NCBI RefSeq assembly: GCF_003425685.1
Contig: NZ_QJKM01000012.1
Span: 1-64,000 of the forward strand
Origin: Rhizobium terrae
GTDB lineage: Bacteria; Pseudomonadota; Alphaproteobacteria; Rhizobiales; Rhizobiaceae
DNA: 64,000 nt
Reading direction: 5' to 3'
A program made the translations under genes and the position numbers. Shown here one piece after another: positions 10,908 through 44,197 of the stretch. Every line of letters begins with the position of its first letter. The first letter of the stretch is position 1. Below the pieces are notes generated by a model, which had not been told where the DNA came from, searched no databases, and saw only the letters and a program-made list of their open reading frames with translations.

Positions 10908-10913
10908 CTGGTT

Positions 10914-10968: not shown

Positions 10969-10974
10969 GCTGTT

Positions 10975-11952: not shown

Positions 11953-12008
11953 CTCAATTGCTCCGATTGGTCACTAGGCACTTGTTTTTCTGCGCCAAAT
12001 TCCGGTTT

Positions 12009-12022
12009 TTGTCAGCTGACAA
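12009..12022. other. TTGTCAGCTGACAA palindrome, candidate parS between repA and repB
   Basis: A perfect 14-bp palindrome in the 71-bp repA-repB gap. Its central GC and TT/AA arms partly fit the repABC parS pattern GTTNNNNGCNNNNAAC, with different outermost bases. The 10-bp core recurs at the 3' end of repC. Confidence 0.6.
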
Positions 12023-12023
12023 G

Positions 12024-13232: not shown

Positions 13233-13251
13233 TCTGCGCAATCTTTCAGAT

Positions 13252-19858: not shown

Positions 19859-19872
19859 TTATGCGAATATTT

Positions 19873-19887
19873 ATTCGTCTAGCGAAT
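19873..19887. promoter_or_regulatory. Candidate IclR operator upstream of the Liv transporter
   Basis: ATTCG-TCTAG-CGAAT, with an overlapping further repeat GCGAAT-ATTT-ATTCG on its left (from 19863). It lies just downstream of the predicted promoter and matches the site before the FMN reductase gene. Confidence 0.6.
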
Positions 19888-19908
19888 TTTTCTTGGGAGG
19901 GAAAAGTT

Positions 19909-21177: not shown

Positions 21178-21196
21178 TCCTATTAACAGATCCAGA

Positions 21197-21217
21197 GAGC
21201 CGGCGAGCTGCCGGCTC
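21197..21217 (+). other. Hairpin between binding-protein gene and livH
   Basis: GAGCCGGC-GAGCT-GCCGGCTC, an 8-bp perfect stem without a T-run, 19 bp after the binding-protein stop. Such hairpins can protect the upstream message and raise binding-protein levels above permease levels. Confidence 0.55.
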
Positions 21218-21230
21218 AAGGACCCAATAA

Positions 21231-23056: not shown

Positions 23057-23766
23057 ACGATATCGTTCTTTCAATGAAGGCCGTGGAAAAGGCCTTCGGT
23101 GCATTCCGTGCGCTCGGCCCGGTCGATCTCGATCTTCGTCCCGGCGAACGGCTCGGCATCATCGGCCCAAATGGTTCCGGCAAGACGACATTGATCAACT
23201 GCATCACCGGCGTCTACCGCCCCGACAAGGGTTCGGTGCATTTCGAGGGCCGCGATATTTCTCATATCGAAGCTCACAAGCGAGCAAGACTGGGCATTTC
23301 CCGCAGCTTTCAGATTCCGCGTCCCTTCGCCGGCATGACGGTGCTGGAAAACCTGTTGGTGCCGCTCGACTACTGCCATGTGGACGGCAGCAAGGAGGAG
23401 CGGGCGCGCGCAGTGCTGACGAGTGTGGGGCTCGCGGGCCGCATCTCCCATCCGTCCGAAAGCCTGTCGCAACTAGAATTGCGCAAGCTGGAACTAGCCC
23501 GCGCACTGGTCGGCAATCCGAAAGTGCTGATCGCCGACGAGGCGATGGCAGGTCTCTCGGGAGAGGAGATCGACGAGGTCCTGTCGATCCTCTTCGCGCT
23601 CAACCGCTCCGGCGTGGCGGTGATCATGATCGAACACATCATGCATGCGGTGATGCGCTTTTCGGAGCGGATCGTCTGCTTCGAGACCGGTCGGCTGATC
23701 GCCTCCGGCACATCCGCCGAGATCGCCGAAAATCCGCTCGTTCAGAAGGTGTATTTCGGTGAATAG
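23053..23766 (+). CDS. livG: LivG-type ABC ATPase
   Basis: A 237-residue ATPase: Walker A GPNGSGKTTLI, Q-loop SRSFQIPRPFAGMTVLENL, signature region LSQLELRKLELARAL (LSGGQ degenerate, as is common in LivG), Walker B VLIADEAMAGLSGEE and the switch histidine in MIEHIMHAVM. It pairs with LivF to power uptake. Translation starts at GTG overlapping the livM stop (GTGA). The Walker B aspartate is followed by EAM instead of EP, an uncommon but tolerated change. Confidence 0.92.
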   Translation: MNDIVLSMKAVEKAFGAFRALGPVDLDLRPGERLGIIGPNGSGKTTLINCITGVYRPDKGSVHFEGRDISHIEAHKRARLGISRSFQIPRPFAGMTVLENLLVPLDYCHVDGSKEERARAVLTSVGLAGRISHPSESLSQLELRKLELARALVGNPKVLIADEAMAGLSGEEIDEVLSILFALNRSGVAVIMIEHIMHAVMRFSERIVCFETGRLIASGTSAEIAENPLVQKVYFGE

Positions 23767-24493
23767 GCTGGTCGTCGACAATCTGTCTGCCGGATACGGC
23801 GCCGTTTCCGTGCTCCGCAACGTCTCGCTGGAGCTGAACGAAAGCGAGATGGTGACGCTGCTCGGCATGAACGGCAACGGCAAAAGTACCCTGCTCAACT
23901 GCGTGCTCGGCTTCGTGCGGGCAAGTGCCGGCCGCATTCTGCTCGAATGGGATGGCAAAACCACCGATCTCACCAAGCTGCAGCCGCACGAGATCGTCCG
24001 GCTCGGCCTGTCGATCGTGCCGGAAGGGCGGCGTCTCGTGCCGAACATCTCGGTCGAGGACAATCTGAAACTCGCGGGCAGCAATCCGCTCGTCGTCGGA
24101 CGGATGAAGGAAAATCTCGCCTATTGTTTCGAAACCTTCCCGCTGCTTCTCGAGCGCCGCAAACAGATCGCCTCGACCATGAGCGGCGGCCAGCAGCAAC
24201 TTTTGGCAATCGCCCGTTCGCTGATGACCTCGCCAAACATCATCATCATCGATGAACCGTCGGTAGGACTCGCGCCGATCGTGGTGCGGGACGTGCTGAA
24301 TGCCATCACGCATCTGCGCGAGAAGAGCAACATGACGATCCTTATGGCGGAGCAGAGTTTCTTCCAGGCGGTCGACGTCTCCTCACGCGCCTATGTTCTG
24401 GCGCATGGCAGCATTTATCGGGAGTTCAAGCGCTCGGACGGCGAAATCGCCCATGAAGAGATTCGTCGCGCGATGCTGGGTACGACACATTGA
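23759..24493 (+). CDS. livF: LivF-type ABC ATPase
   Basis: A 244-residue ATPase with Walker A GMNGNGKSTLLN, the LivF hallmark VPEGRRLVPNISVEDNLKL, signature MSGGQQQLLAIARSLM, Walker B IIIIDEPSVGLAPIV and a glutamine in the switch position (MAEQSFFQA). It starts at GTG within the livG end (8-bp overlap). It is the last intact gene of the operon; a truncated dehydrogenase follows 10 bp later. Confidence 0.92.
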   Translation: MNRLVVDNLSAGYGAVSVLRNVSLELNESEMVTLLGMNGNGKSTLLNCVLGFVRASAGRILLEWDGKTTDLTKLQPHEIVRLGLSIVPEGRRLVPNISVEDNLKLAGSNPLVVGRMKENLAYCFETFPLLLERRKQIASTMSGGQQQLLAIARSLMTSPNIIIIDEPSVGLAPIVVRDVLNAITHLREKSNMTILMAEQSFFQAVDVSSRAYVLAHGSIYREFKRSDGEIAHEEIRRAMLGTTH

Positions 24494-27538: not shown

Positions 27539-29761
27539 TTACCAGGCTTTGCTGAGCTTGAAAGTGAATGTGCGGGCATCGCCGTATCCGCAGGTCGCCG
27601 ATCCGCCGCAACCCTTGACATATTCCTTGTCGAAGACATTGCTGACGTTGAGTGAGCCTTCCCAGCCATCCTTCCTGTAGCGGATGGCCGCATCGAATAC
27701 TGCAGCACCGGGAACCTTCAGCGCATTCAAACGATCAGCATAGCTCTCACCCTGGTAGCGCACGCCGCCACCAAGGCTCAACCCTTCAAGAGGACCTTGC
27801 ATGACCGAATAGTCGAGCCATAGCGAAGCCTGGGTGTCCGGCACGAGATAGGGCTTCTTGCCCACATAGGCGGCAACGATGTCATCCTTGACTTCGAGAT
27901 CGGTATAGCTGAACGATCCGAGGATCTTCCAGTTCTCGTCCAGGTTGACCTTGGTTTCCAGCTCGATGCCAAGGGATTCGACCTCTCCGATCTGACTCGA
28001 CAGGAATAGAGGAGCACCGGTGCTGACCGCAACATTGCGCTTGGTCAGCTGGAACAACGATGCGGTGAACGTGCCGTCGATGAAGGTCGGCTCGTATTTC
28101 AGGCCGATCTCGTATTGCTCGCCCTCTTCCGGTTTGTTGTACGGTGTCGCGCTGACGACGACGGTCGGGTTGAAGAAGGTCCCGACGCTTGCGTAGGGGG
28201 TCAGGCCATTGTCGAACTCGTAAGCCAAACCGATACGCCCGCTCAAAGCGCCTTTATCGTAACTGTAGCTGAACGAGGTCGCACTATAGGCCGTCGGCCG
28301 ATTGTCGGTATCCGTGTGGACGAAGTCGTAGCGGCCATTGAGCGTTACCAGCCATCCATCGCCGAAACGAAGCTGGTCCTGCGCATAAATGCCGACCTGC
28401 TGTTGTGTGACGAGCTGGTTGCTATAGACCAAGTTGGCCGGCTGCACGGCGCCGTAGACGGGATTGGTGGCGCTGATCGGCGTCCCAGGGGACGACGCCT
28501 GAAGATTATCAAGCTGATAATATTTGTAATCGAACCCGACCATCAGGTCGTGGCTCACCGGACCGGTATCGAATTCACCTTCGAGGCGGTTGTCGGTCGC
28601 AAACGTATGAACCTTCGACGTTGCCTCGAAACCAAGCCGGTGAAGCTGGAAATCCGGCGTCTGCGGCGTATCGTAGGAGCCATAGATATCCAGCGGGTCG
28701 GCGCCCTGATAGCCGTAGAGATAAGGGCCTTCCTCATGCTTGTAGAGATGGCCGTAACGGACGTTCTGCGAAAACTTCCAATTGCTTGTAAACTCGTGCT
28801 CGAATTCGTAGCCGATCATCTGCTGGGCATATTCGCCTTCGTCGATGGAAGGCTCGCCATAAAACGCATCCCGGTCGATCTTGCCGAAAGGCGCATCGAC
28901 GACGGTACCGACATAGGGGAAGAAACCGTTGCCGACATGCACTTGGTCGAGACCGGAAACGAAACCCCAGACCGTGAATTTCGTCCCTTCATCCGGCGAA
29001 ACCGTCAGCTGCGGCATGATGAACCCGCGCAGGTCGTGCGAGTAGTCCGAGTAGTTGTCCCCGCCGGCGATCTTTCCGGTCAGGCGATAGCTCATCGTGT
29101 CGCTGTTGCCGATCTTATCGGAGATGTCGAAGCCCCCAAAGGCATTGCCGTTACTGTTGATCCCGGTTTCCGTATAATAAAAAGGCTCGTCGGTCGGGCG
29201 CTTGCGTACATAGTTGACAATGCCGCCGGCATTGCCGCCACCATAAAGAACCGACGAGGGACCTTTCAGCACATCGACACGTTCCAGCATGAAGGGATCG
29301 AGCTGAAATCCGCCGAAGCCGTAAGCGAAAAGATTGAGGCCGTCGAAGAACGCGCCGGTTTGCGTCGCGTCGAAACCGCGAATGTAGATCCAGTCGGTAT
29401 CTGCATCGGTGCCAAAGGGCTCGGCCGTCACGCCCGGAGTATAACGCAGGGCTTCGTCGATCTTGTTAACGACGCCGCGGTCGTTCATCTCCTGCTTGCC
29501 GACGACCGAAACTGCCTGCGGAATCTCATTCAACGGCGTATCGGTCTTTGAACCGGCGTTGGATTTTTTGGCGACATAACCTTTGACCGGCCCTGTCGCC
29601 GGTTCCCCTTCGCCTTGCAGCACGATCGGCGCCAAAGTCGTATCGGCGTTCTGCGCCTGCGCCGACCAGCCCGCGCAAATGCCGATGATCGCGACACTCG
29701 CGCCTAGTCCACACCTTGCAGCTCTCGTCCTGGCTCCAAGCGCTCCCTTCCGTTTCGTCAT
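27539..29761 (-). CDS. TonB-dependent siderophore receptor
   Basis: A 740-residue outer-membrane receptor. A signal sequence (residues 1-36, AQAQ) is followed by the plug domain with LNEIPQAVSVVGKQEMNDRG, LRYTPGVTAE, DWIYIRGFDATQ, LERVDVLKGPSSVLYGGGNAGGIVNYVRKRP and then the 22-strand barrel ending in an aromatic residue (KLSKAW). The late KEYVKGCGGSATCGYGDART loop with two cysteines is typical of FhuA/FoxA-type hydroxamate receptors. It heads the uptake operon and is next to a divergent-side AraC regulator. The promoter region (29762-29924) has TTGAGT near an inverted GAGT/ACTC pattern. Confidence 0.93.
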   Translation of the reverse strand: MTKRKGALGARTRAARCGLGASVAIIGICAGWSAQAQNADTTLAPIVLQGEGEPATGPVKGYVAKKSNAGSKTDTPLNEIPQAVSVVGKQEMNDRGVVNKIDEALRYTPGVTAEPFGTDADTDWIYIRGFDATQTGAFFDGLNLFAYGFGGFQLDPFMLERVDVLKGPSSVLYGGGNAGGIVNYVRKRPTDEPFYYTETGINSNGNAFGGFDISDKIGNSDTMSYRLTGKIAGGDNYSDYSHDLRGFIMPQLTVSPDEGTKFTVWGFVSGLDQVHVGNGFFPYVGTVVDAPFGKIDRDAFYGEPSIDEGEYAQQMIGYEFEHEFTSNWKFSQNVRYGHLYKHEEGPYLYGYQGADPLDIYGSYDTPQTPDFQLHRLGFEATSKVHTFATDNRLEGEFDTGPVSHDLMVGFDYKYYQLDNLQASSPGTPISATNPVYGAVQPANLVYSNQLVTQQQVGIYAQDQLRFGDGWLVTLNGRYDFVHTDTDNRPTAYSATSFSYSYDKGALSGRIGLAYEFDNGLTPYASVGTFFNPTVVVSATPYNKPEEGEQYEIGLKYEPTFIDGTFTASLFQLTKRNVAVSTGAPLFLSSQIGEVESLGIELETKVNLDENWKILGSFSYTDLEVKDDIVAAYVGKKPYLVPDTQASLWLDYSVMQGPLEGLSLGGGVRYQGESYADRLNALKVPGAAVFDAAIRYRKDGWEGSLNVSNVFDKEYVKGCGGSATCGYGDARTFTFKLSKAW

Positions 29762-31011: not shown

Positions 31012-32568
31012 TCAGCCTTGCTTCGGCTCTCCCGGGATCAGTTTTTCGAGGTTCATCCCCACGGCATCGCCAAGTTTTTTCATCGTCGGAAGAGCAACGG
31101 CCATATCGAGGATCGCACCGACGGTCTGGTCGACCGGCGAGGGCGCGCGCTCGGTGACATCTCCGACCCGGCCGAGACCGGTAATGTGATTGATCGAAAT
31201 GCCTTTGATCTTTTCCGCGGGCTTGACCATTTCGCCAATGATCGCCGGCAGGGCGGCAAGCCGCGCCTTTTCGAGTTCCATGGCGGCAAGCTCCGGCGAA
31301 CGGCTGTTTTCGGCCTCGATCCGGGCGGCCTCTCCATCAGCCTCCGCCTTTTTCTGGATGCGCAGTGTTTCGGCCTCTTCGCGTTTGATCAACCCGCGCG
31401 TCTTGGCAGCGATCTGGTCGCTTTCGGAGGTGATGCGAATGCGGGTGGCCTGGGCCTCGGCTTCCTGCTCGGCCGCCATCAGAGCGAGCTGCTTGCGGCG
31501 CTCGGCTTCGGCCATCTGTCGCAGGGTCGAAAGGTCTTCCTCTGCCTTGATCACCGCGGCGCGAGCCTCGGTCGCTTCCGCTTTAGCGCGGCTTTCCTCT
31601 TGGCTTTTCGCGGCGATCTGGATGGCGCGGTCCTGTTCGGCGATTTCGAGCGCGCGCGACTGTAGGATTTCCGCTTCCCGGATAATCTGTTCGCGGGCAA
31701 GCGAGGCAGTCTGGATGGCGCGCTCCATCTCGATGCGGGCCTGCGCGGCGGCCGCTTCCGCCTCTGCCTTGCGACGGGCGACTTCGGTCAGTTGTTGGGC
31801 AAGCAGAAGCTCGATTTCCTGGGTCTGCTGGATTTCGGCGCGGCGCTGTTCAAGCTCGATATCGAGCTTGCGGCGGTTCGATTCCACCTCGGCACGGCGC
31901 ACAGCGACCTGGCTTTCACCCTCGATCTCGGCGCGTTCCTTCTTCGACTTCGCTATGACCTCGGCGAGCTTGCGCATGCCGACCGCGTTGAAGGCATTGT
32001 TCTCGTCGAGCGCCGAGAACGGCGTCTGATCGAGAGAGGTAAGCGATACGCTGTCCAGTTGCAGGCCGTATTTCACCAAGGTGCCTGCGAGTGCTTCATG
32101 CACCTGACGGACGAATTCGCCACGGTTTTCATGTAGCTCGTCCATGGTCATCTGTGCCGCGACGGCGCGAAGCGCATCCACCATCATCCCGTCGATCAGT
32201 GATTTGAGCTGATCCGGCTGAAACGTACGCCGACCAAGCGTCTGCGCAGCACGCACCACGGCCGCCTCTTCCGGCACGACGGAAGTGTAGAACTCCGCGC
32301 CGACATCGATGCGCATGCGATCCTTGGTGATCAGCGCGTGGTCGCCGGTGCGGGCGACATCCATGCGGATCGTCTGCATGTTCACGCGGCTGACCTCGTG
32401 GAAATAAGGGATAGCCAGCGTGCCGCCCTCGATCACCACCTTGCGGCCGCCGATGCCGGTGCGCACCAGGCTCACCTCGTTCGTCGCACGTTCGAAGAAC
32501 CACGCAGCCAGCACGATCAGCACCGCCGCAAGGATGAGAAGGATGATGAACCAGCCCAAGGCGCTCAT
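31012..32568 (-). CDS. Flotillin-like SPFH/band-7 protein
   Basis: A 518-residue flotillin: one N-terminal membrane helix (residues 4-24), an SPFH domain (about 25-190, FERATNEVSLVRTGIGGRKVVIEGG and SLTSLDQTPFSALDENNAFNAVG), then a long alanine/glutamate-rich coiled coil (about 205-430) with EA-repeats and a C-terminal GEMVKPAEKIKGISINHI segment. Flotillins form oligomeric scaffolds in membrane microdomains. Here it is the last gene of an eight-gene operon, 22 bp after an aldehyde dehydrogenase, an unusual partner. No NfeD-like companion is encoded beside it, unlike most bacterial flotillin loci. AAAGGAAAAG precedes the ATG. Confidence 0.92.
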   Translation of the reverse strand: MSALGWFIILLILAAVLIVLAAWFFERATNEVSLVRTGIGGRKVVIEGGTLAIPYFHEVSRVNMQTIRMDVARTGDHALITKDRMRIDVGAEFYTSVVPEEAAVVRAAQTLGRRTFQPDQLKSLIDGMMVDALRAVAAQMTMDELHENRGEFVRQVHEALAGTLVKYGLQLDSVSLTSLDQTPFSALDENNAFNAVGMRKLAEVIAKSKKERAEIEGESQVAVRRAEVESNRRKLDIELEQRRAEIQQTQEIELLLAQQLTEVARRKAEAEAAAAQARIEMERAIQTASLAREQIIREAEILQSRALEIAEQDRAIQIAAKSQEESRAKAEATEARAAVIKAEEDLSTLRQMAEAERRKQLALMAAEQEAEAQATRIRITSESDQIAAKTRGLIKREEAETLRIQKKAEADGEAARIEAENSRSPELAAMELEKARLAALPAIIGEMVKPAEKIKGISINHITGLGRVGDVTERAPSPVDQTVGAILDMAVALPTMKKLGDAVGMNLEKLIPGEPKQG

Positions 32569-32590
32569 TGTCTTTTCCTTTCAGTATCGG

Positions 32591-34072
32591 TCAGAACTGC
32601 GGCGGGAAGTGACGGCCGCCGCGATCGAGCGTGATCCAGCGAAGTTCGGTGAAGGCATCCAACGACCAGCGGCCGCCGTAACGGCCGACGCCGCTCGCCT
32701 TGGTACCGCCAAACGGCACATGCGGTTCATCGTTGATGTTCTGACAGTTGACGTGGCAGATGCCGGTTTCCAGCCGCTCGGCCATCCGCAGCGCGCGGGC
32801 CTCGTCGCGAGACCATACGGCGGCGGTGAGGCCGTATTCGGTGTCGTTGTTGAGCGCCACCGCCTCGTTCTCGTCGCGGAACGGACAGACGACGACGACG
32901 GGGCCGAAAGTCTCGTCATGCCAGATGTTCATCGAGCTGTTGACGTTCGCAAGCACGGTCGGCTCGACGAAATTGTCCCAGGCGCGGCCGCCGAGTTCGA
33001 CGGTGGCGCCCTTGGCGACCGCATCATCGATCAGCGCCTTGACACGCAATGCCTGGCGGTTGTTGACCAACGGACCGATGACATTCGACGGATCGTTGGT
33101 GTGGCCGGTCTTCAGCTTGCGGGCGCGGGCGAGGAAGCGCTCCATGAAGGGCGCATAGACCTTCTCGTGAACCAGGAGTTTCTCTGTCGACATGCAGACC
33201 TGCCCCTGATGCATGAAACTGCCGAAATTCGCCGCGCGCGCGGCGGCATCGAGATCGGCGTCCTCGAGCAGGATCATCGAATCCTTGCCGCCGAGCTCGA
33301 CGCAGACCTTCTTCAGGTATGCGCCGCATTTCGCCGCGATATGGCGGCCGACAGCGGTCGAGCCGGTGAAGCTGATCGCCTTGACCTTCGGATTGCCGAT
33401 CATCTCGTCGCCGACGGCGCCGACGCTTTCGCGCGAGCAAGTGACCACGTTGAAGACGCCGGCCGGCACGCCTGCCTCTTCCAGAACTTCCGCGAAATAA
33501 AGTCCGCCGGAATAGGGCGTGTCTTCGGAGGGCTTGAGCACGATCGTGTTGCCGACGGCAAGCGCTGCGGCAAAGCCGCGCGAGGTCAGAATGCCCGGCA
33601 TGTTCCAGGGGCTGATGACGCCGACGACGCCGAGCGGGAAACGGGTCGCCATCATGAACTTGTGGTGTTCGGAAGGCAGCACGTCGCCGATTGACTGGTA
33701 GCAGAGCGCCGCGGCGGAGCGGAAGACTTCCGCGACATAACCCGCCTCGAACAGGCCCTTGCCCTTCCAGCCGCCGCCTTCGGCCATGGCCGCGTTGCAG
33801 AAATCGGCTTTGCGGCGATCCCAGACATCGGCGATCTTCAAAAGGAGATGCGCGCGCTCATGGAAGGCGCGGCCGGACCATTCGCCGAAGGCCGCCTGCG
33901 CGGCATCGATCGCCCGGCGCATGTCAGCGGCGGAACCATCGGGAATACGGGCGTAGAGGCTGTTGTCCGAGGGGTTCAGATCCTCGAAGGTGCGGACGGC
34001 GGGAACCCATTGCCCGCCGATATACATGCCCTTGACCGAAGGCGCGGTGTTGTTGGCGACGATATCAAGCAT
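32591..34072 (-). CDS. NAD(P)-dependent aldehyde dehydrogenase (aromatic-aldehyde type)
   Basis: A 493-residue aldehyde dehydrogenase. Seen are the cofactor fold with WNMPGIL and KPSEDTPYSG, FTGSTAVGRHIA, the catalytic glutamate in VCVELGGKDSMILL and the nucleophilic cysteine in NFGSFMHQGQVCMSTEKLLV; the C-terminal PFGGTKASGVGRYGG is typical. The sequence style is close to vanillin/benzaldehyde/salicylaldehyde dehydrogenases (inference). The start at 34072 has AAGGAGACC upstream. It lies 13 bp after the tailed LivF gene and 22 bp before the flotillin. Confidence 0.9.
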   Translation of the reverse strand: MLDIVANNTAPSVKGMYIGGQWVPAVRTFEDLNPSDNSLYARIPDGSAADMRRAIDAAQAAFGEWSGRAFHERAHLLLKIADVWDRRKADFCNAAMAEGGGWKGKGLFEAGYVAEVFRSAAALCYQSIGDVLPSEHHKFMMATRFPLGVVGVISPWNMPGILTSRGFAAALAVGNTIVLKPSEDTPYSGGLYFAEVLEEAGVPAGVFNVVTCSRESVGAVGDEMIGNPKVKAISFTGSTAVGRHIAAKCGAYLKKVCVELGGKDSMILLEDADLDAAARAANFGSFMHQGQVCMSTEKLLVHEKVYAPFMERFLARARKLKTGHTNDPSNVIGPLVNNRQALRVKALIDDAVAKGATVELGGRAWDNFVEPTVLANVNSSMNIWHDETFGPVVVVCPFRDENEAVALNNDTEYGLTAAVWSRDEARALRMAERLETGICHVNCQNINDEPHVPFGGTKASGVGRYGGRWSLDAFTELRWITLDRGGRHFPPQF

Positions 34073-34085
34073 GATCGGTCTCCTT

Positions 34086-35375
34086 TTATTGCGGATCGCG
34101 ACGCCAGGCCCGGGCGCGGGCGGCGGCATCCTCGATCTCTTTCAGAACGGATTTCAGACGGTCTTGGCCATTGCCCAAGCCCGTCGCGGGGATAGGCGGC
34201 GGAGCGAGGCTGGGCGAGGGAAGGCCGGAACGGTTTGCCGAGCCATTGCTCGTTCCCGGGTTCGGCATATAGGTCCGCGGCGGAGCGGCAGGCATGCTTC
34301 CGCCGTATTGGGCACGGCTTGCTTGGCTGGCCTGCGCCACGAGATCGCCGACAGACAGGCCGCCGAGCAGCGCATCCGCTGTGCCGCGCATGGCAGGGGT
34401 GGGCGAAGGGGCCGGAGGCGAGGTCGGGCGCGGTACCGCAGCCGGTGGGGGCATGCGCGGCGGTTCGGGCAGAGGCTGCGGGGGTGGGGCAGGGGAAACA
34501 GGTCGTGCCGGTGTCACGGCAGGAAGGGCTGCCAACGCTGCGGCTGCAATATCCTGTGGCGAGGGGCCAGTTGTTCGAGGTGGTACATGAACTCTTGCGG
34601 CAGCGCCAGCGGCCACGGGCGCTGCCAGGAGTGATGTCGGACGAGGAGTGGAAGCCGGCCGGCTTCCGCCGCCGCCGAGATAGGCGGCCTGCACGGCCGG
34701 GTCGTTGCGCAAATCCTGCGCCCTGCCTTCATGGACGATTCGGCCGTTTTCCAGGAGATATCCCCGGTCGGCGATCGCAAGACTCTGCTTGGCATTCTGC
34801 TCCACCAGCAAAATGCCGATGCCGGTGTCGCGCACCGCCTTCAGCGCGTGGAACAGTTCCTTGCAGAGAAGCGGCGAGAGACCAAGCGAGGGTTCGTCCA
34901 GCGTCAGCAGCGCCGGGTTCGACATCATCGCCCGGCCGATCGCCACCATCTGCTGCTCGCCACCCGACATGGTGCGGACGATCTGGCCGCGCCGTTCGTG
35001 GAGTTTCGGGAAAAGCCGGAGCACGCGGTCGAGATTACCTGCCTCTTCGTCGCGGGCACGCGGCGCATGGGCGCCGAGTTTCAGGTTTTCGGCGACCGTC
35101 AGGTCGCCAAACACGCCGCGGCCTTCCGGCACCAGCGCGATGCCTTCCTCGACAATACGGTTCGGGGCAAGCCCGAGGATCTCCTTACCCTGCATGGTGA
35201 TCGTGCCGGCGGCGCGGCCTTCGCAGATGCCGGAAACGGCCTTGAGCAGGGTGGATTTCCCGGCGCCGTTGGCGCCGAGGATAACGACGATCTCGCCGCG
35301 GCCGATCTTCAGCGAAGCACCTTCCAGCGCCCGGTGCTGGCCGTAGGATACGGAAAGCCCTTTCACCTCAAGCAT
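34086..35375 (-). CDS. livF: LivF-type ATPase with 195-residue proline/alanine-rich tail
   Basis: A 429-residue protein; normal LivF is about 235. Residues 1-234 form a complete LivF ATPase: Walker A GANGAGKST at 34-42, VPEGRGVFGDLTVAENL, signature MSGGEQQMVAIGRAMM at 136-151, Walker B LLTLDEPSLGL and QNAKQSL. Residues 235-429 are a Pro/Ala/Ser-rich tail (PPPQPLPEPPRMPPPAA, SPPAPSPTPA) with embedded ordered-looking pieces (TADALLGGLSVGDLVAQAS and a final DRLKSVLKEIEDAAARARAW helix). The frame is continuous with no stop. The start uses GGGGG upstream of the ATG at 35375. The tail suggests a tether to another protein or to the membrane. Confidence 0.88.
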   Translation of the reverse strand: MLEVKGLSVSYGQHRALEGASLKIGRGEIVVILGANGAGKSTLLKAVSGICEGRAAGTITMQGKEILGLAPNRIVEEGIALVPEGRGVFGDLTVAENLKLGAHAPRARDEEAGNLDRVLRLFPKLHERRGQIVRTMSGGEQQMVAIGRAMMSNPALLTLDEPSLGLSPLLCKELFHALKAVRDTGIGILLVEQNAKQSLAIADRGYLLENGRIVHEGRAQDLRNDPAVQAAYLGGGGSRPASTPRPTSLLAAPVAAGAAARVHVPPRTTGPSPQDIAAAALAALPAVTPARPVSPAPPPQPLPEPPRMPPPAAVPRPTSPPAPSPTPAMRGTADALLGGLSVGDLVAQASQASRAQYGGSMPAAPPRTYMPNPGTSNGSANRSGLPSPSLAPPPIPATGLGNGQDRLKSVLKEIEDAAARARAWRRDPQ

Positions 35376-36096
35376 CGTCATCCCCCAGATAGGCGCGGAT
35401 AACGGCCGGATCGGAAAGCACGTCCGTCGGCGTACCCTCGGCGATCTTGGCGCCGGCAGCCATGACGACACAACGGTCGCAGAGCGAGCGAATCGCGTCC
35501 ATCACGTGCTCAACGAGAATGATGGTGCGGCCCTCGTCGCGCAGGCTGCGGATCAGGCGGATGCCTTCTTCGAGTTCGGTCGGATTGAGACCGGCAAGCC
35601 ACTCGTCCAGCAGCACGATACGCGGTTCGCCGGCGAGCACGCGGGCAAGCTCGACCCGCTTGGTATCGATATAGGTGAGCTGCCCGACCATCATCTGGCT
35701 GCGGCCGGCAAGGCCGACCTTTTCGAGCATGGTATTGGCGATCGCCTCCGCTTCATGCCCCCAGTGACGACGGTGACCGAAGACGGCGCCCGCCTTGACG
35801 TTTTCCAGCACCGTCATCGACGGAAGGAGGCGGACGAGCTGAAAGGTGCGGGCAATGCCTCGTCTTGCGATATCCTGGGCCGGCAGGTGGGTGATCGGCT
35901 GGCCACGCAGACTGATCGTGCCGGCCGTCGCAGGGAAGGCACCGGAAATCAGGTTCAGCGTCGTGGATTTTCCCGAGCCGTTCGGGCCGATCAGGCCCAG
36001 GACCTCGTGTTCGGTGACATCGAAATCCATGCGGTTGACAGCCGTCAACCCGCCGAAACGCTTGGAGACGCCGCGGAGCGAGAGAAGCGCGCTCAT
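35368..36096 (-). CDS. livG: LivG-type ABC ATPase
   Basis: A 242-residue ATPase with Walker A GPNGSGKSTTLN, Q-loop RTFQLVRLLPSMTVLENV, a degenerate signature LTYIDTKRVELARVLAG, Walker B IVLLDEWLAGLNPTELEEG and the switch region ILVEHVMDAIRSL. The Walker B residue after the glutamate is tryptophan (DEW) in place of DEP, as in some LivG branches. It overlaps livM by 4 bp (ATGA) and its end overlaps the tailed livF start by 8 bp. Confidence 0.92.
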   Translation of the reverse strand: MSALLSLRGVSKRFGGLTAVNRMDFDVTEHEVLGLIGPNGSGKSTTLNLISGAFPATAGTISLRGQPITHLPAQDIARRGIARTFQLVRLLPSMTVLENVKAGAVFGHRRHWGHEAEAIANTMLEKVGLAGRSQMMVGQLTYIDTKRVELARVLAGEPRIVLLDEWLAGLNPTELEEGIRLIRSLRDEGRTIILVEHVMDAIRSLCDRCVVMAAGAKIAEGTPTDVLSDPAVIRAYLGDDDA

Positions 36097-37034
36097 GCAA
36101 AACCCTCCGCGTTGTTCATTCGCTTCCTTGCAGCGTCGATCAGGCCAACGAAACCCTTCGGCAGCAGGTAGACGATGACAAGGAAGCAGAGGCCGAGGAG
36201 AAGCGTGGTCTGGTTCGGAAACGACGCCGAGATCGCTTCCCACAGGAACGTGAAGGGAATGACGCCGACGAGCGGACCCCAGAGCCGGCCGGTGCCACCG
36301 AGCAGCGCCATGATGACGACCTGGAAGGAAAGCATCGGCGTGAACGCAAGCGACGGTTCGATATAGACATAGCGCGGTGCAAGGATCGCCCCGGTGATCG
36401 AGGCCATGGCGCCTGGCACCATGAACAGCAGGATTTTCGCTCGCGCCGTATCAATGCCGGAATGTTTGGCCACCGCTTCGTCATCGCCGATGATGCGCAG
36501 TGCGAAGCCGAGACGCGACCGCCCGATGAGCCAACCGAGCAGCAAGACGACGGCCGCAAGGCCGAGAAGCTGCCAGTAGATATGCACCTCGGTGATCGAG
36601 GTCAGAACGTAGATGCCCTTGGTGCCGGAGACATTCTGGCCCCAGGTGATGATCTGCCGAACGAATTCGGCAAGACCGAGCGTGAAGATCACGAAATAGA
36701 CGCCTGAAAGCCGAAGCGTTGCGAGCCCGACCAATGCCGCCATGAGCGCGCCCATAACGCCGGCAATGGGCAGCAGCGCCCAATAGGGCAGGTGCTGGAT
36801 GCCGATCCCGGTGACATAGGCGCCCACACCGAAAAAGGCGGCGGTCGCAAGCGAGATGTAATGGGTTGGGCCGGAAAACAGCGCCCAGCTCGTGGCGAGC
36901 ACCGTGTACATGGCGATCGTCACGCCGATCGTCAGGCTGTAGGCGCCGGCCGTCCATGGCAGGCAGGCGGCAGCAATAAGGGCGAGGGTGCAAAGGGCGA
37001 GATTGCCCCAGTCGCGGGAGGAAAGCGCGGTCAC
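36093..37034 (-). CDS. livM: LivM-type permease
   Basis: A 313-residue permease with about nine hydrophobic helices. Family blocks: MYTVLATSWALFSGPTHYISLATAAFFGVGAYV, LRLSGVYFVIFTLGLAEFVRQ and the coupling loop LGFALRIIGDDEAVAKHSGIDTARAKILLF. The GTG start at 37034 overlaps the livH stop (GTGA) and is preceded by GGGAGG; a longer ATG frame would sit inside livH. Confidence 0.9.
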   Translation of the reverse strand: MTALSSRDWGNLALCTLALIAAACLPWTAGAYSLTIGVTIAMYTVLATSWALFSGPTHYISLATAAFFGVGAYVTGIGIQHLPYWALLPIAGVMGALMAALVGLATLRLSGVYFVIFTLGLAEFVRQIITWGQNVSGTKGIYVLTSITEVHIYWQLLGLAAVVLLLGWLIGRSRLGFALRIIGDDEAVAKHSGIDTARAKILLFMVPGAMASITGAILAPRYVYIEPSLAFTPMLSFQVVIMALLGGTGRLWGPLVGVIPFTFLWEAISASFPNQTTLLLGLCFLVIVYLLPKGFVGLIDAARKRMNNAEGFA

Positions 37035-37897
37035 GTCGTAGGCCTCCCGAACAGGCCCTGCGGGCGCCACAGAAGGATGATGACGAAGAGCAGATAAGCT
37101 GCAGCCAGCGTCAGGCCGGGGTCAATGACGCGGGCGACGAAGGTTTCGAGCATGCCGAGGAGCACGGCTGCGACGATCGTGCCGCGCACATCTCCCACGC
37201 CGCCCATGATGACGATGACGAGCGCCTTCAGCGTGAAGATCACACCGGTCGAGGCATCGAGTGTCAGGAAGGTGGAGATCAGCGCGCCGCCGGTGGCGGT
37301 CACGGCACCGCCCAATGCGAAGGCAAGTGCCGCCGTCTTGCGCACATCGATGCCGACCAGACGGGCGCTATCCGGCGCGACAGAAATCGCTCGGATGGTC
37401 ATACCGGCACGGCTGCGGGCAAGCCAGAGCCACAGTGCGCCGCAGATGATGACCGCCGAGAGGAAGGCCGTGACGCGATTGGCGCCATAGGTATCGCCGA
37501 GGATATTCACCGGCGTCGAAAGATAGGAATAGCTGAAATAGTCGCCGCCGAAAAAGGCGAGCATCAGCCCGACGGCCACGAAGGAGAGGCCGAATGTCGT
37601 CAGGATCGCGTCCACCTCAAGCTGCCCGCGCGACTTGGCGCGTTTCACGAGCGGACGCAGGAAGATGATGTAGATCAGCCAGTTGAACAGAAAGGCCACC
37701 GGCGCGACGAGAAACACGGTCAAGAGCGGGCTGACCTGGCTGCCCGTCCAGAACCAGAAGGCGACGAAGCCGCCTGCAACCAGCATCTCGCCATTGGCGA
37801 GGTTCATGATGCGGGCCATGCCGTATTGCAGGTTCAGACCCATCGCGATCAGCGCGTAGGTCCCGCCCAGCAAGAGCCCTGTTACGATAACGTCCAT
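37031..37897 (-). CDS. livH: LivH-type permease
   Basis: A 288-residue permease. It begins with the family opening VIVTGLLLGGTYALIAMGLNLQYGMARIMNLANGEMLVAGGF, has the coupling loop SRAGMTIRAISVAPDSARLVGIDVRKTAALAFALG and ends with MGGVGDVRGTIVAAVLLGMLETF. It follows the binding-protein gene after a 63-bp gap holding a strong hairpin. Confidence 0.92.
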   Translation of the reverse strand: MDVIVTGLLLGGTYALIAMGLNLQYGMARIMNLANGEMLVAGGFVAFWFWTGSQVSPLLTVFLVAPVAFLFNWLIYIIFLRPLVKRAKSRGQLEVDAILTTFGLSFVAVGLMLAFFGGDYFSYSYLSTPVNILGDTYGANRVTAFLSAVIICGALWLWLARSRAGMTIRAISVAPDSARLVGIDVRKTAALAFALGGAVTATGGALISTFLTLDASTGVIFTLKALVIVIMGGVGDVRGTIVAAVLLGMLETFVARVIDPGLTLAAAYLLFVIILLWRPQGLFGRPTT

Positions 37898-37920
37898 GCC
37901 ATTCCCCGGTGGAGGTCAAT

Positions 37921-37946
37921 CCCGGGGTTCGGTAAGGAACCCCGGG
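37921..37946 (-). other. Strong hairpin between binding-protein gene and livH
   Basis: Perfect 10-bp stem CCCGGGGTTC-GGTAAG-GAACCCCGGG with no T-run. Placed exactly as the hairpin in the other Liv operon of this window, after the binding-protein gene. Confidence 0.65.
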
Positions 37947-37960
37947 GTAGGAGTTACGGA

Positions 37961-39163
37961 TTACTTCCAGGCACCCTTCTTCACCGGCGCGACGGCACCT
38001 TCGCGGCCGGTCGAGGCGACGCCCTTGAACACGCCGCCCTGCCACTGGCCGACGGTCCAGAAAGCGGGGTTGTTGTTGTGCGCGTCGAACTTGATCGGGC
38101 CGATCACCGTATCGAAGCTGTTCGCCTTGATGTGCTTGATGATCGCGGCATTGTCGAAAGCGCCGACGGCTTCGATCGATTTTTCGAGAATCTGGAAGGA
38201 CGAATAGACCATGGCGCTTGCCCAGTAGTCCGGCTTGGCACCCGTCACCTTCTCGTGACGCTGCGCATATTCCTGGAAGGCCTTGCCATCGGCATAAACG
38301 CCGCCGATGCCGAGGACGCCTTCGGCAGATTTGCCGAAGCGACCGGCATAGGCCGGGAAGGCGGTCGCGACGGCGGTGAAGAAGGCGCCGACCTTCAGGT
38401 CTTCGACGACGGCTTGTTCAGTGAGTGCGAACGTGTCGGGCGGATAGGACCAGGCGATGAAGGCATCCGGAGCCGCAGCCTTCACGGCCTTCATGACCGG
38501 CGAAAGGTCCTGCGTGCCGAGCGGATAGGAGGTCTCATAGACGAGGTCGAAACCGGCGGCCTTGAAGGCGGGTTTCGCCTCGCCCATCAGTTCGATGCCG
38601 AACGCGTCGGCGACGTTGACCATGGCGAGCTTCTTGCCGATATCGCCGCGGTCACGCAGCTTGACCATGGTTTCGACGACGCTCTTGACCGTGGGCTTGG
38701 CGCCGCCGAGCGTGATGAAGACGTTGGGGAACTGCTTGGCAAGCTCGTCCGCCTTGTCGGTGGTTGCCGTCGAGGTGATCATCGGCAGGCCGTAGCGCGC
38801 GTAGATCGGTGCGGCCGCAAGGTTCAGGCCCGTCGAATAGGGCGGCAGCACGACCTTGACCTTGTCCTGGTCGACGAGGCGCTGCACAGCCTTGATCGTT
38901 TCGCCCGGATTGGTCTGGTCGTCATACTCGATGGCTTCCAGCTTGTAGGTCTTGCCGCCGACCTTCAGGCCGCCGCGGCCGTTGACGTCGCTGATCCATA
39001 GCTTGACGTTCGGCCAATAGCTGACGGCGGCGCCACCCGCAAGCGGACCTGTCTTCGGGGCCACGGCGCCGATCTTCAGCACCTCCTGTGCCAGAGCCGG
39101 GGCTCCGGCCACGCTCGTTGCCAGTGCAAGAGCAGCAAGCTGGGTAAATGTCCTGCGTTTCAT
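37961..39163 (-). CDS. Periplasmic substrate-binding protein, Liv-type ABC transporter
   Basis: A 400-residue type I binding protein with an export signal (MKRRTFTQLAALALATSVAGAPALAQ) and the mature opening LKIGAVAPKTGPLAGGAAVSYWPNVKLWISDVNGRGG. Later segments (VLPPYSTGLNLAAAPIYARYGLPMITSTATTDKADELAKQF) place it with amino-acid/amide or aromatic-acid binders. GGGAGGAGAAG precedes the ATG. It sits 31 bp after an aldehyde dehydrogenase gene and heads the transporter part of the operon. Confidence 0.9.
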   Translation of the reverse strand: MKRRTFTQLAALALATSVAGAPALAQEVLKIGAVAPKTGPLAGGAAVSYWPNVKLWISDVNGRGGLKVGGKTYKLEAIEYDDQTNPGETIKAVQRLVDQDKVKVVLPPYSTGLNLAAAPIYARYGLPMITSTATTDKADELAKQFPNVFITLGGAKPTVKSVVETMVKLRDRGDIGKKLAMVNVADAFGIELMGEAKPAFKAAGFDLVYETSYPLGTQDLSPVMKAVKAAAPDAFIAWSYPPDTFALTEQAVVEDLKVGAFFTAVATAFPAYAGRFGKSAEGVLGIGGVYADGKAFQEYAQRHEKVTGAKPDYWASAMVYSSFQILEKSIEAVGAFDNAAIIKHIKANSFDTVIGPIKFDAHNNNPAFWTVGQWQGGVFKGVASTGREGAVAPVKKGAWK

Positions 39164-39194
39164 GTCTTCTCCTCCCGTTGTCACACTTCAAGAA

Positions 39195-40652
39195 CTATTG
39201 CCGGTCCAACTGATCGGCCGCCGGTTCGTCACGCTCGGTCATCCATTGGATCTCCGTGAATTCGTCGATCACCGCGCGACCACCGAAACGGCCGTAACCG
39301 CTTGCCTTCATGCCGCCGTAGGGCATGGTCGGATCGTCGCAGACGGTCGTGCCGTTGATGTGGACCGCACCGGCTTCGATCTGCCTGGCGATCGTACGGG
39401 CCTTGCCGAGATCGCGGCTGAAGACCGCGGCGGTCAAGCCGTATTCGGTGTCGTTAGCAACCGTGACGGCCTCTTCCGCATCCGCCACGCGCACCACGCC
39501 GACGACGGGGCCGAAAATCTCTTTTTCGTAGATCCGCATGCCATAGGCGACATGGTCGATGACCGTCGGCTGCATCAGCGTCCCGGCATGCTCGCCTCCG
39601 GTGATCAGCACCGCGCCTTTACCAAGCGCATCGTCGATCAGCCCGTGCAGGCGCAGCACGGCATCCGTGCCGATGACGTGGCCAAACGGCGCCTGTCCGG
39701 TATGGGGATCGCCGCGAAGTTTTTCCGCTTCGGCCTTCAGGCGGTCGACGAAGGCATCGGCGACAGCCTCCTCGACTACGATCCGGTCGGTCGACATACA
39801 GACCTGTCCCTGATTGAAGAAGGCGCCGTGGGCAACTGCCTTCGCAGTTCCATCGAGATCGGCATCGGCGAGCACGATCGAGGAGGCCTTGCCGGAAAGT
39901 TCCAGCAGGCAGCGCTTCAGATGTTGGGCCGCGGTCGCCGCGACCTGGCGGCCGACACGGGTCGAACCGGTAAAATTCACCCTTCTCACCGCCGGATGGG
40001 CGATCAGCACCTCGACCACATCATGGGCGTCCTCGGGCGCACTGCTGACGAAGTTCAGCACGCCCTCGGGCAGGCCGGCATCGATCAGCGTCTGTGTTAC
40101 GGTCTCATGCATCTTGGGGCAGAGTTCGGATCCTTTCAGCACCACGGTATTGCCAAGCGCCAACGGCGCGGCGACCGCGCGCACGGCGAGCGCTACCGGG
40201 GCATTCCAAGGCGCGAGGCCAAGCACCACGCCTGCGGGGCGGCGGATCAGGCGGTAACGCACACCGGCGGGCGCTCCTGTCGCATTTTCTTCGCCAATGG
40301 CTCCGGCAAGGCTTGCCGCATGCCGCAAGGTCGCCTGGGCGATTTCCACATTGAAACGGATCCAGCTCGGACAAGCACCGACCTCGCGTTCACCGATGTG
40401 ACAAAGCGTGTCGAGTCGCGTCTCCAGAAGTTCGGCACCCTTCACGAGCAGGGCCGCGCGATTGGATGGATCAAGGCCGGACCAGCCGGGAAAGGCGCCC
40501 GCCGCAGCATCCGCGGCGGCTTCCGCTTCGGCCGGCCCAAAGGCTGCGGCCAGCGTCAATATGGCGCCTGTCGCGGTGTCGCGACGTTCGTAACAACGCT
40601 CATCCAAAGCGGAAACGGCAATGCCTCCCACGATGCCCCGTGCACCGAACAT
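39195..40652 (-). CDS. Aldehyde dehydrogenase (first gene of the Liv/flotillin operon)
   Basis: A 485-residue aldehyde dehydrogenase: LGLAPWNAPVALAVRA, VLKGSELCPKMHETV, NFTGSTRVGRQVAA, the catalytic glutamate in LLELSGKASSIVL and cysteine in GAFFNQGQVCMSTDRIVVE, C-terminal MPYGGMKASGYGRFGG. It resembles salicylaldehyde/vanillin dehydrogenases (inference). It differs clearly in sequence from the second aldehyde dehydrogenase of the operon, so the two may act on different aldehydes. GGGAGGACGC precedes the ATG at 40652. A divergent AraC regulator lies 132 bp away. Confidence 0.9.
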   Translation of the reverse strand: MFGARGIVGGIAVSALDERCYERRDTATGAILTLAAAFGPAEAEAAADAAAGAFPGWSGLDPSNRAALLVKGAELLETRLDTLCHIGEREVGACPSWIRFNVEIAQATLRHAASLAGAIGEENATGAPAGVRYRLIRRPAGVVLGLAPWNAPVALAVRAVAAPLALGNTVVLKGSELCPKMHETVTQTLIDAGLPEGVLNFVSSAPEDAHDVVEVLIAHPAVRRVNFTGSTRVGRQVAATAAQHLKRCLLELSGKASSIVLADADLDGTAKAVAHGAFFNQGQVCMSTDRIVVEEAVADAFVDRLKAEAEKLRGDPHTGQAPFGHVIGTDAVLRLHGLIDDALGKGAVLITGGEHAGTLMQPTVIDHVAYGMRIYEKEIFGPVVGVVRVADAEEAVTVANDTEYGLTAAVFSRDLGKARTIARQIEAGAVHINGTTVCDDPTMPYGGMKASGYGRFGGRAVIDEFTEIQWMTERDEPAADQLDRQ

Positions 40653-40784: not shown

Positions 40785-41735
40785 ATGTATTTTCTCGATG
40801 TGGGATTCTTGATGCCAGATCGCCGTCCATTCATCCAGCAGACAGCCTCCCGGCCGGAAGTGCCGGTTCGGGCCGAGCGTTTTCGGGCCGCTCTGCAGAC
40901 CCGTGTGCTGGGCAGGGCAGGTCTCGGCGAGGCTGAAAATTTCCGCGCCCTCTTCCTGGAGAAGGGAGAGGCAATGCTGCGCGGCGCCGACGACGATGCC
41001 CTGCCACTCTCCGGCCCGACCATGGGGTGGTTTCCATGGCGTGATGGGATGAGGCTCGAGCTTGGGGCAGGTGCACAGGGCACCCACCTTCTGCTTGGCG
41101 CCTCCACGCTGAACAGGGTGTTGCAGCGGCGCGCCGAGGCCGGCGAATTGCGGTTCATGACCAGAAGGCCAACTTTTATCCGCCTGGGAGCGGATAGCGC
41201 TGCGCGGGAAGCGATTGCAGCTTGTTTCACAGGCGTCCTGGCAGAAACGCTCCACCCCGGCCTCATGTCGTCGGCCATAGTGGACTCGCTCCTGCATATC
41301 CTGCTCGTGCATCTTCACCGCGGCCAGCCGGGCCGGATCGGCGCAGGGGCTGAAACGGGAGGAATCAGGGCGATCGCCGGGCAGTTCACAGTGCTGGTCG
41401 AAACCCATTTCCGCGATCAGTGGGCGGTGGCGGATTATGCCGCGGAACTCGGCATTTCCCGCGACCGGCTGAACGACATCTGCCTCAGAGCCTATGGCCG
41501 CCCGCCGGCCCGCCTGATCCGCGAAAGGTTGGCGCTGGAAGCGCGCATCTATCTGGAAAACTCGTCCCTGGCGCTGGGCCAGATCGCCGGCGTCCTGGGC
41601 TTCGCCGGCGCTCCGCAGTTCAACCGTTTCTTCAAGGCGCTGCTGGGGCGCACGCCCGGGCGCTATCGCCTGGAGCTGCACCGTTCGGCCCAGGCCGGGC
41701 CTGCTGCGCCGAATGCCCACTATGCCTGGCCTTGA
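40785..41735 (+). CDS. AraC-family regulator, divergent from the Liv/flotillin operon
   Basis: The C-terminal 100 residues form the AraC DNA-binding module: WAVADYAAELGISRDRLNDICLRAYGRPPARLIRERLALEARIYL and LGQIAGVLGFAGAPQFNRFFKALLGRTPGRYRLEL. The N-terminal part is an effector domain of AraC type with no clear resemblance. The start is uncertain: ATG 40785 or 40812. A strong ribosome binding site (GGGAGAG) precedes an out-of-frame ATG at 40769, which may encode a short leader. It probably controls the divergent operon. Confidence 0.85.
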   Translation: MYFLDVGFLMPDRRPFIQQTASRPEVPVRAERFRAALQTRVLGRAGLGEAENFRALFLEKGEAMLRGADDDALPLSGPTMGWFPWRDGMRLELGAGAQGTHLLLGASTLNRVLQRRAEAGELRFMTRRPTFIRLGADSAAREAIAACFTGVLAETLHPGLMSSAIVDSLLHILLVHLHRGQPGRIGAGAETGGIRAIAGQFTVLVETHFRDQWAVADYAAELGISRDRLNDICLRAYGRPPARLIRERLALEARIYLENSSLALGQIAGVLGFAGAPQFNRFFKALLGRTPGRYRLELHRSAQAGPAAPNAHYAWP

Positions 41736-43360: not shown

Positions 43361-44197
43361 ATGTCCGAACGGAAATGCCCTATGACACTGAATGTAATTG
43401 CGCGGGAAGCCGCGGATGACAACGGACCAATCCTTTCGCTGAAGGATGTGAGCTTTGCGATCGAGGGCCGCATCCTTCTGCACCCGCTGACCCTCGATCT
43501 CGCGTCGGGCAAATCCATTGCGCTGATCGGTCATAACGGCTCCGGCAAATCGACGCTCTTAAAGATTATCGGACGACAGCAGTCACCAACCGGCGGCACG
43601 ATCCATTTCGAAGGAAAACCGCAGGAGAACTGGGGAACGCGTGCCTTTGCCCGCCGGCTCGCCTATCTTCCGCAGCGGACGCCGGCGGCGCCCGGCATGC
43701 TGGTGAAGGAACTGGTGGCGCTTGGCCGCTATCCATGGCACGGGGCGCTAGGCCGTTTCAGCGCCACCGACAAGGCCAAGGTGGAGGAGGCGATCGAGCT
43801 CACGGGTATCGGTCCGTTTTCCGAACGGATGGTGGATACGCTCTCGGGCGGCGAACGCCAGCGCGTCTGGCTTGCCATGCTGGTCGCGCAGGATGCAACC
43901 TGTCTGCTTCTGGACGAGCCGATCTCTGCCCTCGACATCGGCCATCAGCTCGAAGTGCTGTCGCTCACGCACGATCTCTGCCGTGAAAAGGGCATCACCA
44001 TCGTGACGGTGCTACACGACGTCAACATGGCGGCCCGCTTCTGCGATGAAATCGTCGCGCTGCATTCCGGCCGGCTGATCGCCCACGGCGCGCCGGAAGA
44101 TGTCATGACACCGGAAGAGCTTGCCCGCATTTATGACGTGCGCATGGACATCATCCATCAACCGTCGAGCGGAAGACTGGTGGCACTGGCCCGGTAG
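43361..44197 (+). CDS. fhuC: Siderophore ABC transporter ATPase (FhuC type)
   Basis: A 278-residue ATPase of the iron-siderophore family: Walker A GHNGSGKSTLLKIIG, the FhuC-typical RRLAYLPQRTPAAPGMLVKELVALGRYPWHGALGRF, signature LSGGERQRVWLAMLVAQ, Walker B CLLLDEPISALDIGHQLEVL and switch TVLHDVNMAARFCD. Its natural partners are the FhuB-type permease and FhuD-type binding protein at 24.6-27.5 kb, which lack an ATPase. GGAGAT precedes the ATG at 43361; an in-frame ATG at 43382 is an alternative. Confidence 0.9.
   Translation: MSERKCPMTLNVIAREAADDNGPILSLKDVSFAIEGRILLHPLTLDLASGKSIALIGHNGSGKSTLLKIIGRQQSPTGGTIHFEGKPQENWGTRAFARRLAYLPQRTPAAPGMLVKELVALGRYPWHGALGRFSATDKAKVEEAIELTGIGPFSERMVDTLSGGERQRVWLAMLVAQDATCLLLDEPISALDIGHQLEVLSLTHDLCREKGITIVTVLHDVNMAARFCDEIVALHSGRLIAHGAPEDVMTPEELARIYDVRMDIIHQPSSGRLVALAR

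Follow-up and report, generated by a model that had tools for sequence, protein, structure and literature searches.

What might a flotillin do among genes for uptake and catabolism? In a 64,000-nucleotide stretch of Rhizobium terrae DNA (contig NZ_QJKM01000012.1, positions 1 to 64,000; here called the window), eight minus-strand genes spanning 31012-40652 encode, in order of transcription, an aldehyde dehydrogenase (ALDH1), a periplasmic binding protein, the LivH, LivM, LivG and LivF subunits of an ATP-binding cassette (ABC) importer, a second aldehyde dehydrogenase (ALDH2) and a flotillin. We propose, with about an even chance of being right, that they form an importer-enzyme unit for the transport and oxidation of aromatic alcohols or aldehydes, which a dedicated flotillin would organise or enclose. 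New beyond a preliminary description of this DNA are a conserved tail on LivF, a match between one tail motif and a short-chain dehydrogenase (SDR) gene, and fusions of importer subunits with enzymes (written with a double colon, as in LivF::ALDH). Judged from their genes, some soil and marine bacteria look as if they keep importer, aldehyde enzymes and flotillin together as one unit.

The 429-aa LivF consists of a normal ATPase core of ~236 residues and a 193-residue C-terminal tail rich in proline and alanine (residues 237-429 plus stop, 34086-34667, minus strand). AlphaFold, run on a 52-sequence alignment, models the core mostly with predicted local distance difference test (pLDDT) values above 90 and predicts a disordered tail containing three helices, each of which coincides with a sequence motif: helix 273-282 (34530-34559) with motif A (P..IAxxA), helix 342-357 (34305-34352) with motif B (DLVAxA), and helix 403-424 (34104-34169; block pLDDT 80 and 94) with motif C (LxxxLxEIExAA), all encoded on the minus strand. 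A similar tail is absent from all 21 measured other LivF-like ATPases of the host genome (22 were found; L172 was left out because the script took a neighbouring gene). Of these paralogues, 17 end at most 14 residues past the core, and the four that extend by 104-279 residues carry, by eye, TOBE-like or second ABC domains.

How far is the gene set kept beyond this host? Flotillin relatives were drawn from one genome-collection scan, of whose 546 matches the best 80 were used, at 57-90% identity. They come mostly from Rhodobacterales, with a few Rhizobiaceae and single bins named otherwise (e.g. Kiloniella, Chromatiales); being the nearest relatives by choice, they give a tally that holds for this group and not for flotillins generally. 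Counts are matches over contigs reaching far enough. ALDH2 lies on the same strand directly upstream of the flotillin in 80/80 loci (77 with full room), making it the flotillin's most constant neighbour, and LivF (71/71), LivM (69/69) and the binding protein (68/68) follow suit; ALDH1 is found in 51/67 loci (one miss, L108, comes from a match broken into two pieces) and a divergent AraC gene in 52/66. Between ALDH2 and flotillin, 33 of 79 loci with room carry an SDR gene, with the flotillin 12-51 bp behind it; the one representative sequence examined passes the coniferyl-alcohol dehydrogenase cut-off (287 vs 242 bits). The neighbourhood search that the preliminary description had called for as a check thus found the flotillin with its Liv and ALDH genes across the whole identity range and not beside unrelated genes. 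Since the gene set recurs in the 80 best relatives, we rejected chance adjacency. Rejected as well was the notion that any flotillin above 50% identity belongs here: copies on Paracoccus denitrificans plasmids (52%) are classical flotillins, accompanied by an OB-fold protein.

The tail recurs with the gene set. Wherever a flotillin is present and LivF is complete, it measures 95-242 aa (75/75 loci: the window, L038, L148, L150 and 71 of the best 80). Twenty further loci were picked by LivH similarity regardless of flotillin, and 18 of them show none; L142, L145 and L149 are cut by contig ends. Among the flotillin-less relatives 11/16 are without a tail, the fusion L144 (see below) and L149, whose contig ends inside the tail region, being excluded, and of the 11 whose contig continues for 3.5 kb or more downstream, nine have tails of 1-7 aa, L139 and L141 being tailed. 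At a cut of 55% identity, ALDH2 stands behind LivF in 78/78 tailed loci whose contigs leave it 1.5 kb, and in 1/10 tailless ones (L138); a looser cut also takes in ALDH1-like genes of L147 and L154, giving 3/10. The tail accompanies ALDH2 at least as closely as it accompanies the flotillin. Two side observations concern the flotillin-less relatives. By eye, the LivF tails of L139-L142 hold several copies of a repeat, approximately LxxxAxxIHxAHIxxxR, that from its sequence looks like a multivalent docking site. In the tailless relatives L147, L154 and L156, a small gene of cupin-like type (assigned by Pfam in the first and last, by eye in L154) lies nearby, and L147 and L156 have near ALDH1 a thiamine-diphosphate enzyme of the PRK08327 family, distantly like benzoylformate decarboxylase.

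Motifs A, B and C occur in 37, 65 and 64 of the 75 tails; shuffling the tails gives 0.6, 14.5 and 0.04. Motif D (EVYRxPRVEVYR), the fourth, is found in 34/75 tails, and these are exactly the loci with the alcohol dehydrogenase (SDR) gene (34/34 vs 0/41; Fisher p 3.6e-19, a value that ignores kinship). All patterns were composed after inspecting the tails: the first B and C patterns were poor, C matching nothing, and were rewritten, and D was loosened from 32/34 to 34/34 before held-out loci were consulted. For the latter, 32 matches yielded 25 extra loci once four at contig ends and G535, G536 and G537, which were earlier loci, had been excluded; 15 repeats of earlier loci and one cut off were then removed. 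The nine remaining agree with the match between motif D and SDR, with L193 carrying D beyond an in-frame stop, where the pattern missed it; its contig has N runs and its reading frame is broken. Searches in further orders (1, 1 and 15 genomes) gave two new matches, both in the 15-genome one.

Importer subunits and enzymes are also joined outright. At locus L144, the LivF frame continues into a complete aldehyde dehydrogenase, making a protein of 810 aa (ABC_tran 103, Aldedh 507 bits) that adjoins a gene passing the 4-hydroxybenzoate 3-monooxygenase cut-off; no flotillin lies near it in 18.5 kb. When 297 genomes of the order were searched with this fusion, ten loci were checked, of which nine (L205-L213) are in-frame LivF::ALDH fusions and the tenth is unfused. 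Their linkers measure 42-94 aa; they come from two families, one from f16, in the genome of L144, and eight from a single genus of f20. Flotillin matches in these genomes, where listed, lie elsewhere. A plasmid search with the fusion returned no record covering 80% and one unannotated match on a Neorhizobium plasmid.

Sister flotillins keep similar company. In a second class of loci (L041-L049), the flotillin directly precedes a different Liv system that shares its strand, and in 8/8 loci with a complete LivF an amidase continues in LivF's own frame (NCBIfam 769 vs a cut-off of 545 bits for L041); within the fetched stretch, an AMP-dependent ligase follows the amidase in five of the eight (Pfam on L041). 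The third type, from a single genome (L040), comprises a binding protein, LivG, LivF, LivH, a LivM::hydroxylase, a frame of glutathione S-transferase plus intradiol dioxygenase, and a flotillin. Here, one 994-codon frame (L040 12347-15331, minus strand) unites LivM with an aromatic ring hydroxylase (BPD_transp_2 77-351, FAD_binding_3 418-779, Rng_hyd_C 874-991); L039 shares with L040 only the dioxygenase end. With a tailed LivF in one type, LivF::amidase in another and LivM::hydroxylase in the third, every kind of Liv-linked flotillin found here accompanies a tailed or enzyme-bearing importer subunit. The preliminary description had suggested that uptake and oxidation are gathered at a flotillin-organised membrane site. 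Its first half, read as physical joining, gains from the nine LivF::ALDH genomes, the fusions beside sister flotillins and the tails in all 75 loci, and the tail, there mentioned in passing, has become the key part of the case for coupling. The second half, in which the flotillin itself would do the gathering, needs correcting in that the most direct evidence for coupling lies in LivF and not in the flotillin.

The last gene of the putative operon (31012-32568, minus strand, 518 aa) encodes a member of the flotillin family: Flot (101.4 bits) and SPFH/Band_7 (74.6 bits) domains both score over cut-off, and in a Foldseek search two flotillin-cage structures rank first (best 9bq2), with prohibitin, HflKC, stomatin and QmcA-YbbJ lower. 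Its score against the FloT profile is 60 bits vs a cut-off of 700. The AlphaFold model (59-sequence alignment, mean pLDDT 77) predicts a membrane helix (residues 3-24), the SPFH domain (25-181), a single long helix (192-420) and a C-terminal helix (478-503). Template modelling (TM) scores to the top match are low, 0.28 and 0.34, probably owing to a different bend of the long helix in the model. Across all 82 relatives counted at 55% identity or more, residues 1-8 bear no net charge and 3-5 Lys/Arg lie behind the membrane helix; by the positive-inside rule, this places the flotillin body in the cytoplasm.

A quick tree built from 59 flotillins places every one of the three Liv-linked types on one side of a branch of its own, and a branch with SH-aLRT support of 100 separates all 54 of their rows from the remaining five, three YqiJ-linked and two rhodopsin-type; this value comes with a long-branch warning. 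Three similarity queries detected no YqiJ-like gene in the window or in class-1 or class-2 loci, though a remotely related NfeD might slip past them; the best window match has an E value of 0.06 over 20 aa, and matches occur only in L050, L051, L052, L055 and L056, the last being the host genome's other flotillin, with YqiJ beside it.

What would be the substrate? Among solved structures, ALDH1 (39195-40652, minus strand) is nearest to salicylaldehyde dehydrogenase (482 bits), vanillin dehydrogenase (463) and NahF (434), the next scoring 266. ALDH2 (32591-34072, minus strand; Aldedh 519 bits) has salicylaldehyde, vanillin and benzaldehyde dehydrogenases among its nearest, the first two nearest of all, with a smaller drop than for ALDH1. 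By sequence, both are thus nearest to aromatic aldehyde dehydrogenases of the salicylaldehyde/vanillin type. This kinship, the coniferyl-type SDR, the 4-hydroxybenzoate hydroxylase neighbour of the LivF::ALDH fusion and the ring-cleaving third type together point to aromatic alcohols and aldehydes as the probable substrate class.

Several results weigh against the proposed unit, or against parts of it. Tail and flotillin are separable: L139, L140 and L141 have tailed LivF proteins without a local flotillin (L140 with 3.1 kb of room), and the obligate partnership of the two is weakened by L139 and L141. L138 has ALDH2 with a tailless LivF. The dehydrogenases of the LivF::ALDH fusions resemble ALDH1, not ALDH2, and no flotillin is seen in the fusion operons. 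Motif B, given its frequency in shuffled tails, is weakly distinctive. A quick tree (93 rows) built from the four transporter proteins shows just two changes each for motif D and SDR, jointly both times; of its independent pairs, ~2.8 out of 3 have flotillin and tail in agreement, and for ALDH2 and tail the figure is 3 out of 4, no pair being opposed. None of these tree-based associations can reach significance. As to the flotillin, the model is of a monomer only, with a predicted TM-score of 0.43. The binding protein, whose nearest solved relatives are leucine-binding proteins, gives no help on the substrate.

How might such a unit work? The periplasmic binding protein and LivHMGF would import an aromatic compound, and the short helical motifs of the LivF tail may dock the aldehyde dehydrogenase (and the SDR, if present) at the importer's cytoplasmic face. 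The flotillin, with one membrane helix and a predicted cytoplasmic body, would gather these importer-enzyme complexes or arch over them, so that the reactive aldehyde might be oxidised before spreading. A bolder form, which we regard as conceivable but doubtful, is a membrane-anchored, protein-walled chamber, in which a flotillin dome on the cytoplasmic side would close over the importer mouth, with one docking motif in the tail per enzyme, and the imported aromatic alcohol would be oxidised via its aldehyde inside. The same flotillin group would then serve several importers, each with its joined enzyme: aldehyde oxidation by way of the LivF tail, amide hydrolysis by LivF::amidase and ring hydroxylation by LivM::hydroxylase.

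Other explanations must be weighed. The genes could constitute an operon for ordinary aromatic catabolism, its flotillin shielding the membrane from a lipophilic substrate or product without contacting importer or enzymes, and the LivF tail serving something separate such as regulation or stability. Aromatic aldehydes do partition into membranes, and the separability of tail and flotillin in L139 and L141 would fit; a general protectant, however, would hardly need to keep to one transporter family over 57-90% identity, nor the company of importer::enzyme fusions in which its sisters are found, and we hold this explanation to be unlikely, if far from negligible. It is also imaginable that the tail alone couples, LivF docking the dehydrogenase while the flotillin looks after the permeases, as their chaperone or in quality control. 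Tails and LivF::ALDH fusions without a local flotillin would be expected under this scheme, as would ALDH2 beside the tail in every tailed locus with room, and flotillin microdomains have been described, in the part of the source available, to stabilise unfolded proteins in Staphylococcus aureus (PMC11222466). Yet flotillin-bearing loci are tailed without exception, and the nine tailless relatives whose contigs reach far enough all lack the flotillin, which renders the scheme improbable in our estimation.

Finally, the flotillin may be a hitchhiker on a selfish operon that moves as a block. The operon is patchy in the family, with a close flotillin copy in 1/13 same-family genomes, namely the host only. 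A complete repABC set (RepC, RepB and RepA over NCBIfam cut-offs; 9544-13241, minus strand) in the window places it on a plasmid-type replicon, and three Neorhizobium plasmids, large ones, carry the operon (3/14 records matched; query coverage 94-95%, DNA identity 81%). Rhizobiaceae flotillins, moreover, nest among those of Rhodobacterales in the flotillin tree. Transfer of the operon on plasmids is likely; that this accounts for the flotillin's presence is a good deal less so, and we consider it very improbable: gene order is constant despite large divergence, the flotillin remains 12-51 bp behind even where an extra enzyme has been inserted after ALDH2, and the tail varies with gene content. 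An importer-enzyme unit with a dedicated flotillin remains our preferred reading.

The preliminary description had reported eight minus-strand genes in the order given above, with gaps of up to 63 bp, some overlaps and a divergent AraC regulator, all of which coordinates and Pfam bear out. Read from flotillin to ALDH1, Pfam assigns Band_7 and Flot; Aldedh; ABC_tran; ABC_tran with BCA_ABC_TP_C; BPD_transp_2 twice; Peripla_BP_6; and Aldedh, and the spacing is 22 and 13 bp (gaps), 8, 4 and 4 bp (overlaps), then 63 and 31 bp (gaps), with gene starts picked by eye from ribosome-binding sites. Upstream of ALDH2 lie, all on the minus strand, the LivF-type (34086-35375) and LivG-type (35368-36096) ATPases, the LivM-type permease (36093-37034), whose GTG start, again chosen by eye, overlaps the LivH stop, the LivH-type permease (37031-37897) and the binding protein (37961-39163; Peripla_BP_6 183 bits). 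With two BPD_transp_2 permeases, two ATPases and a Peripla_BP_6 protein, this is a Liv-type (HAAT) importer; against the profiles of the LivFGHMJ branched-chain amino acid importer, it stays below cut-off (LivF 245 vs 441 bits, profile NF008626 across residues 1-235; LivG 213 vs 362). The AraC-type regulator (40785-41735, plus strand; HTH_18, HTH_AraC) starts 132 bp from ALDH1, and its nearest NCBIfam family is HpaA, at 76 bits far below the cut-off of 275. No promoter- or terminator-like site that would split the flotillin from the operon, a point raised in the preliminary description, was seen between it and ALDH2 in a weak scan: over 29.5-42.5 kb, it found 2 promoter-like and 8 terminator-like sites, no more than the 2.2 and 11.3 expected from shuffled sequence. 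A 10-bp inverted repeat with no T run behind it (37921-37946, minus strand) lies between the binding-protein gene and LivH and possibly raises expression of the binding protein, with a whole-segment fold z of only -1.2.

Elsewhere in the window, another Liv operon, whose LivF has no tail, is found at 19861-24493 (plus strand). A TonB siderophore receptor (27539-29761, minus strand; over cut-off) and a FhuC-like ATPase (43361-44197, plus strand; under cut-off) flank the operon described here, which may thus split an iron-uptake set.

CouPSTU is a Liv-type importer of aromatic acids. It serves Rhodopseudomonas palustris as a binding-protein-dependent ABC importer of lignin-derived aromatics; it shares with our system the periplasmic binding protein and ABC components, and its abstract mentions neither a flotillin nor an enzyme-carrying ATPase (PMC3610893). 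The nearest system in print, as far as the available texts go, is the FArhodopsin cluster, where a flotillin is likewise embedded among transporters and catabolic enzymes and is proposed by the authors to serve the cluster's genes; the accessible portion of that paper describes a rhodopsin gene, other transporters and no Liv/ALDH unit (PMC10308929). The flotillin in the window, in contrast, neighbours ALDH2 and an AraC gene, with no adjacent rhodopsin gene, and the FArhodopsin-like flotillins L053 and L054 fall outside the Liv-linked group in the tree. L054 (8090-10572) itself, from the host's own order, has a rhodopsin-family gene directly before the flotillin, in a FArhodopsin-like cluster that also holds an ABC ATPase, an SSF symporter, an Fe-alcohol dehydrogenase and an ALDH.

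Classical NfeD-paired flotillins (SPFH2; YuaFG, YqiJK) are, in the part of the source at hand, alike in having Band_7 and Flot domains, one N-terminal membrane segment and a long helix (PMC2636767), and differ in the NfeD/YqiJ gene alongside, of which the three YqiJ queries found none here. Enclosure by related proteins has precedent in the available sections of two further papers: the flotillin cage is 32 nm wide and 22 nm high, with a wall without holes (PMC11260169), and stomatin domes enclose AQP1 and the urea transporter UT-B, while HflKC surrounds FtsH (PMC12407830). These are SPFH assemblies around membrane proteins, as we envisage; theirs hold channels or a protease, whereas ours would hold an importer and catabolic enzymes. 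Pfam recognises no microcompartment shell protein among the operon's eight genes. Bacterial microcompartments (Pdu/Eut) keep a reactive aldehyde near its dehydrogenase and have enzymes targeted to them by short helical peptides; the barrier here, in contrast, would be the membrane plus flotillin. In the literature, judged mostly from titles and the openings of abstracts, we came across no account that pairs a flotillin with both a Liv importer and an aldehyde dehydrogenase, nor any that gives LivF a catabolic tail or fusion. Among the papers so judged are a 2026 survey of Pseudomonas aeruginosa SPFH proteins (PMC13086221) and one on a Brucella regulon in which 'flotillin' and 'LivF' each appear once (PMC2898763).

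For few bacterial flotillins are the clients known, and the gene content here names candidates outright. As these vary, from aldehyde and alcohol dehydrogenases to an amidase and to a ring hydroxylase with dioxygenase, there are now defined partners with which the role of flotillin could be tested. An importer subunit carrying the first catabolic enzyme, or fused to it, would represent a natural importer-enzyme channel, of relevance to toxic lignin-derived aldehydes. Should the flotillin indeed form a chamber over the importer, these systems would constitute a general class of importer-fed compartments.

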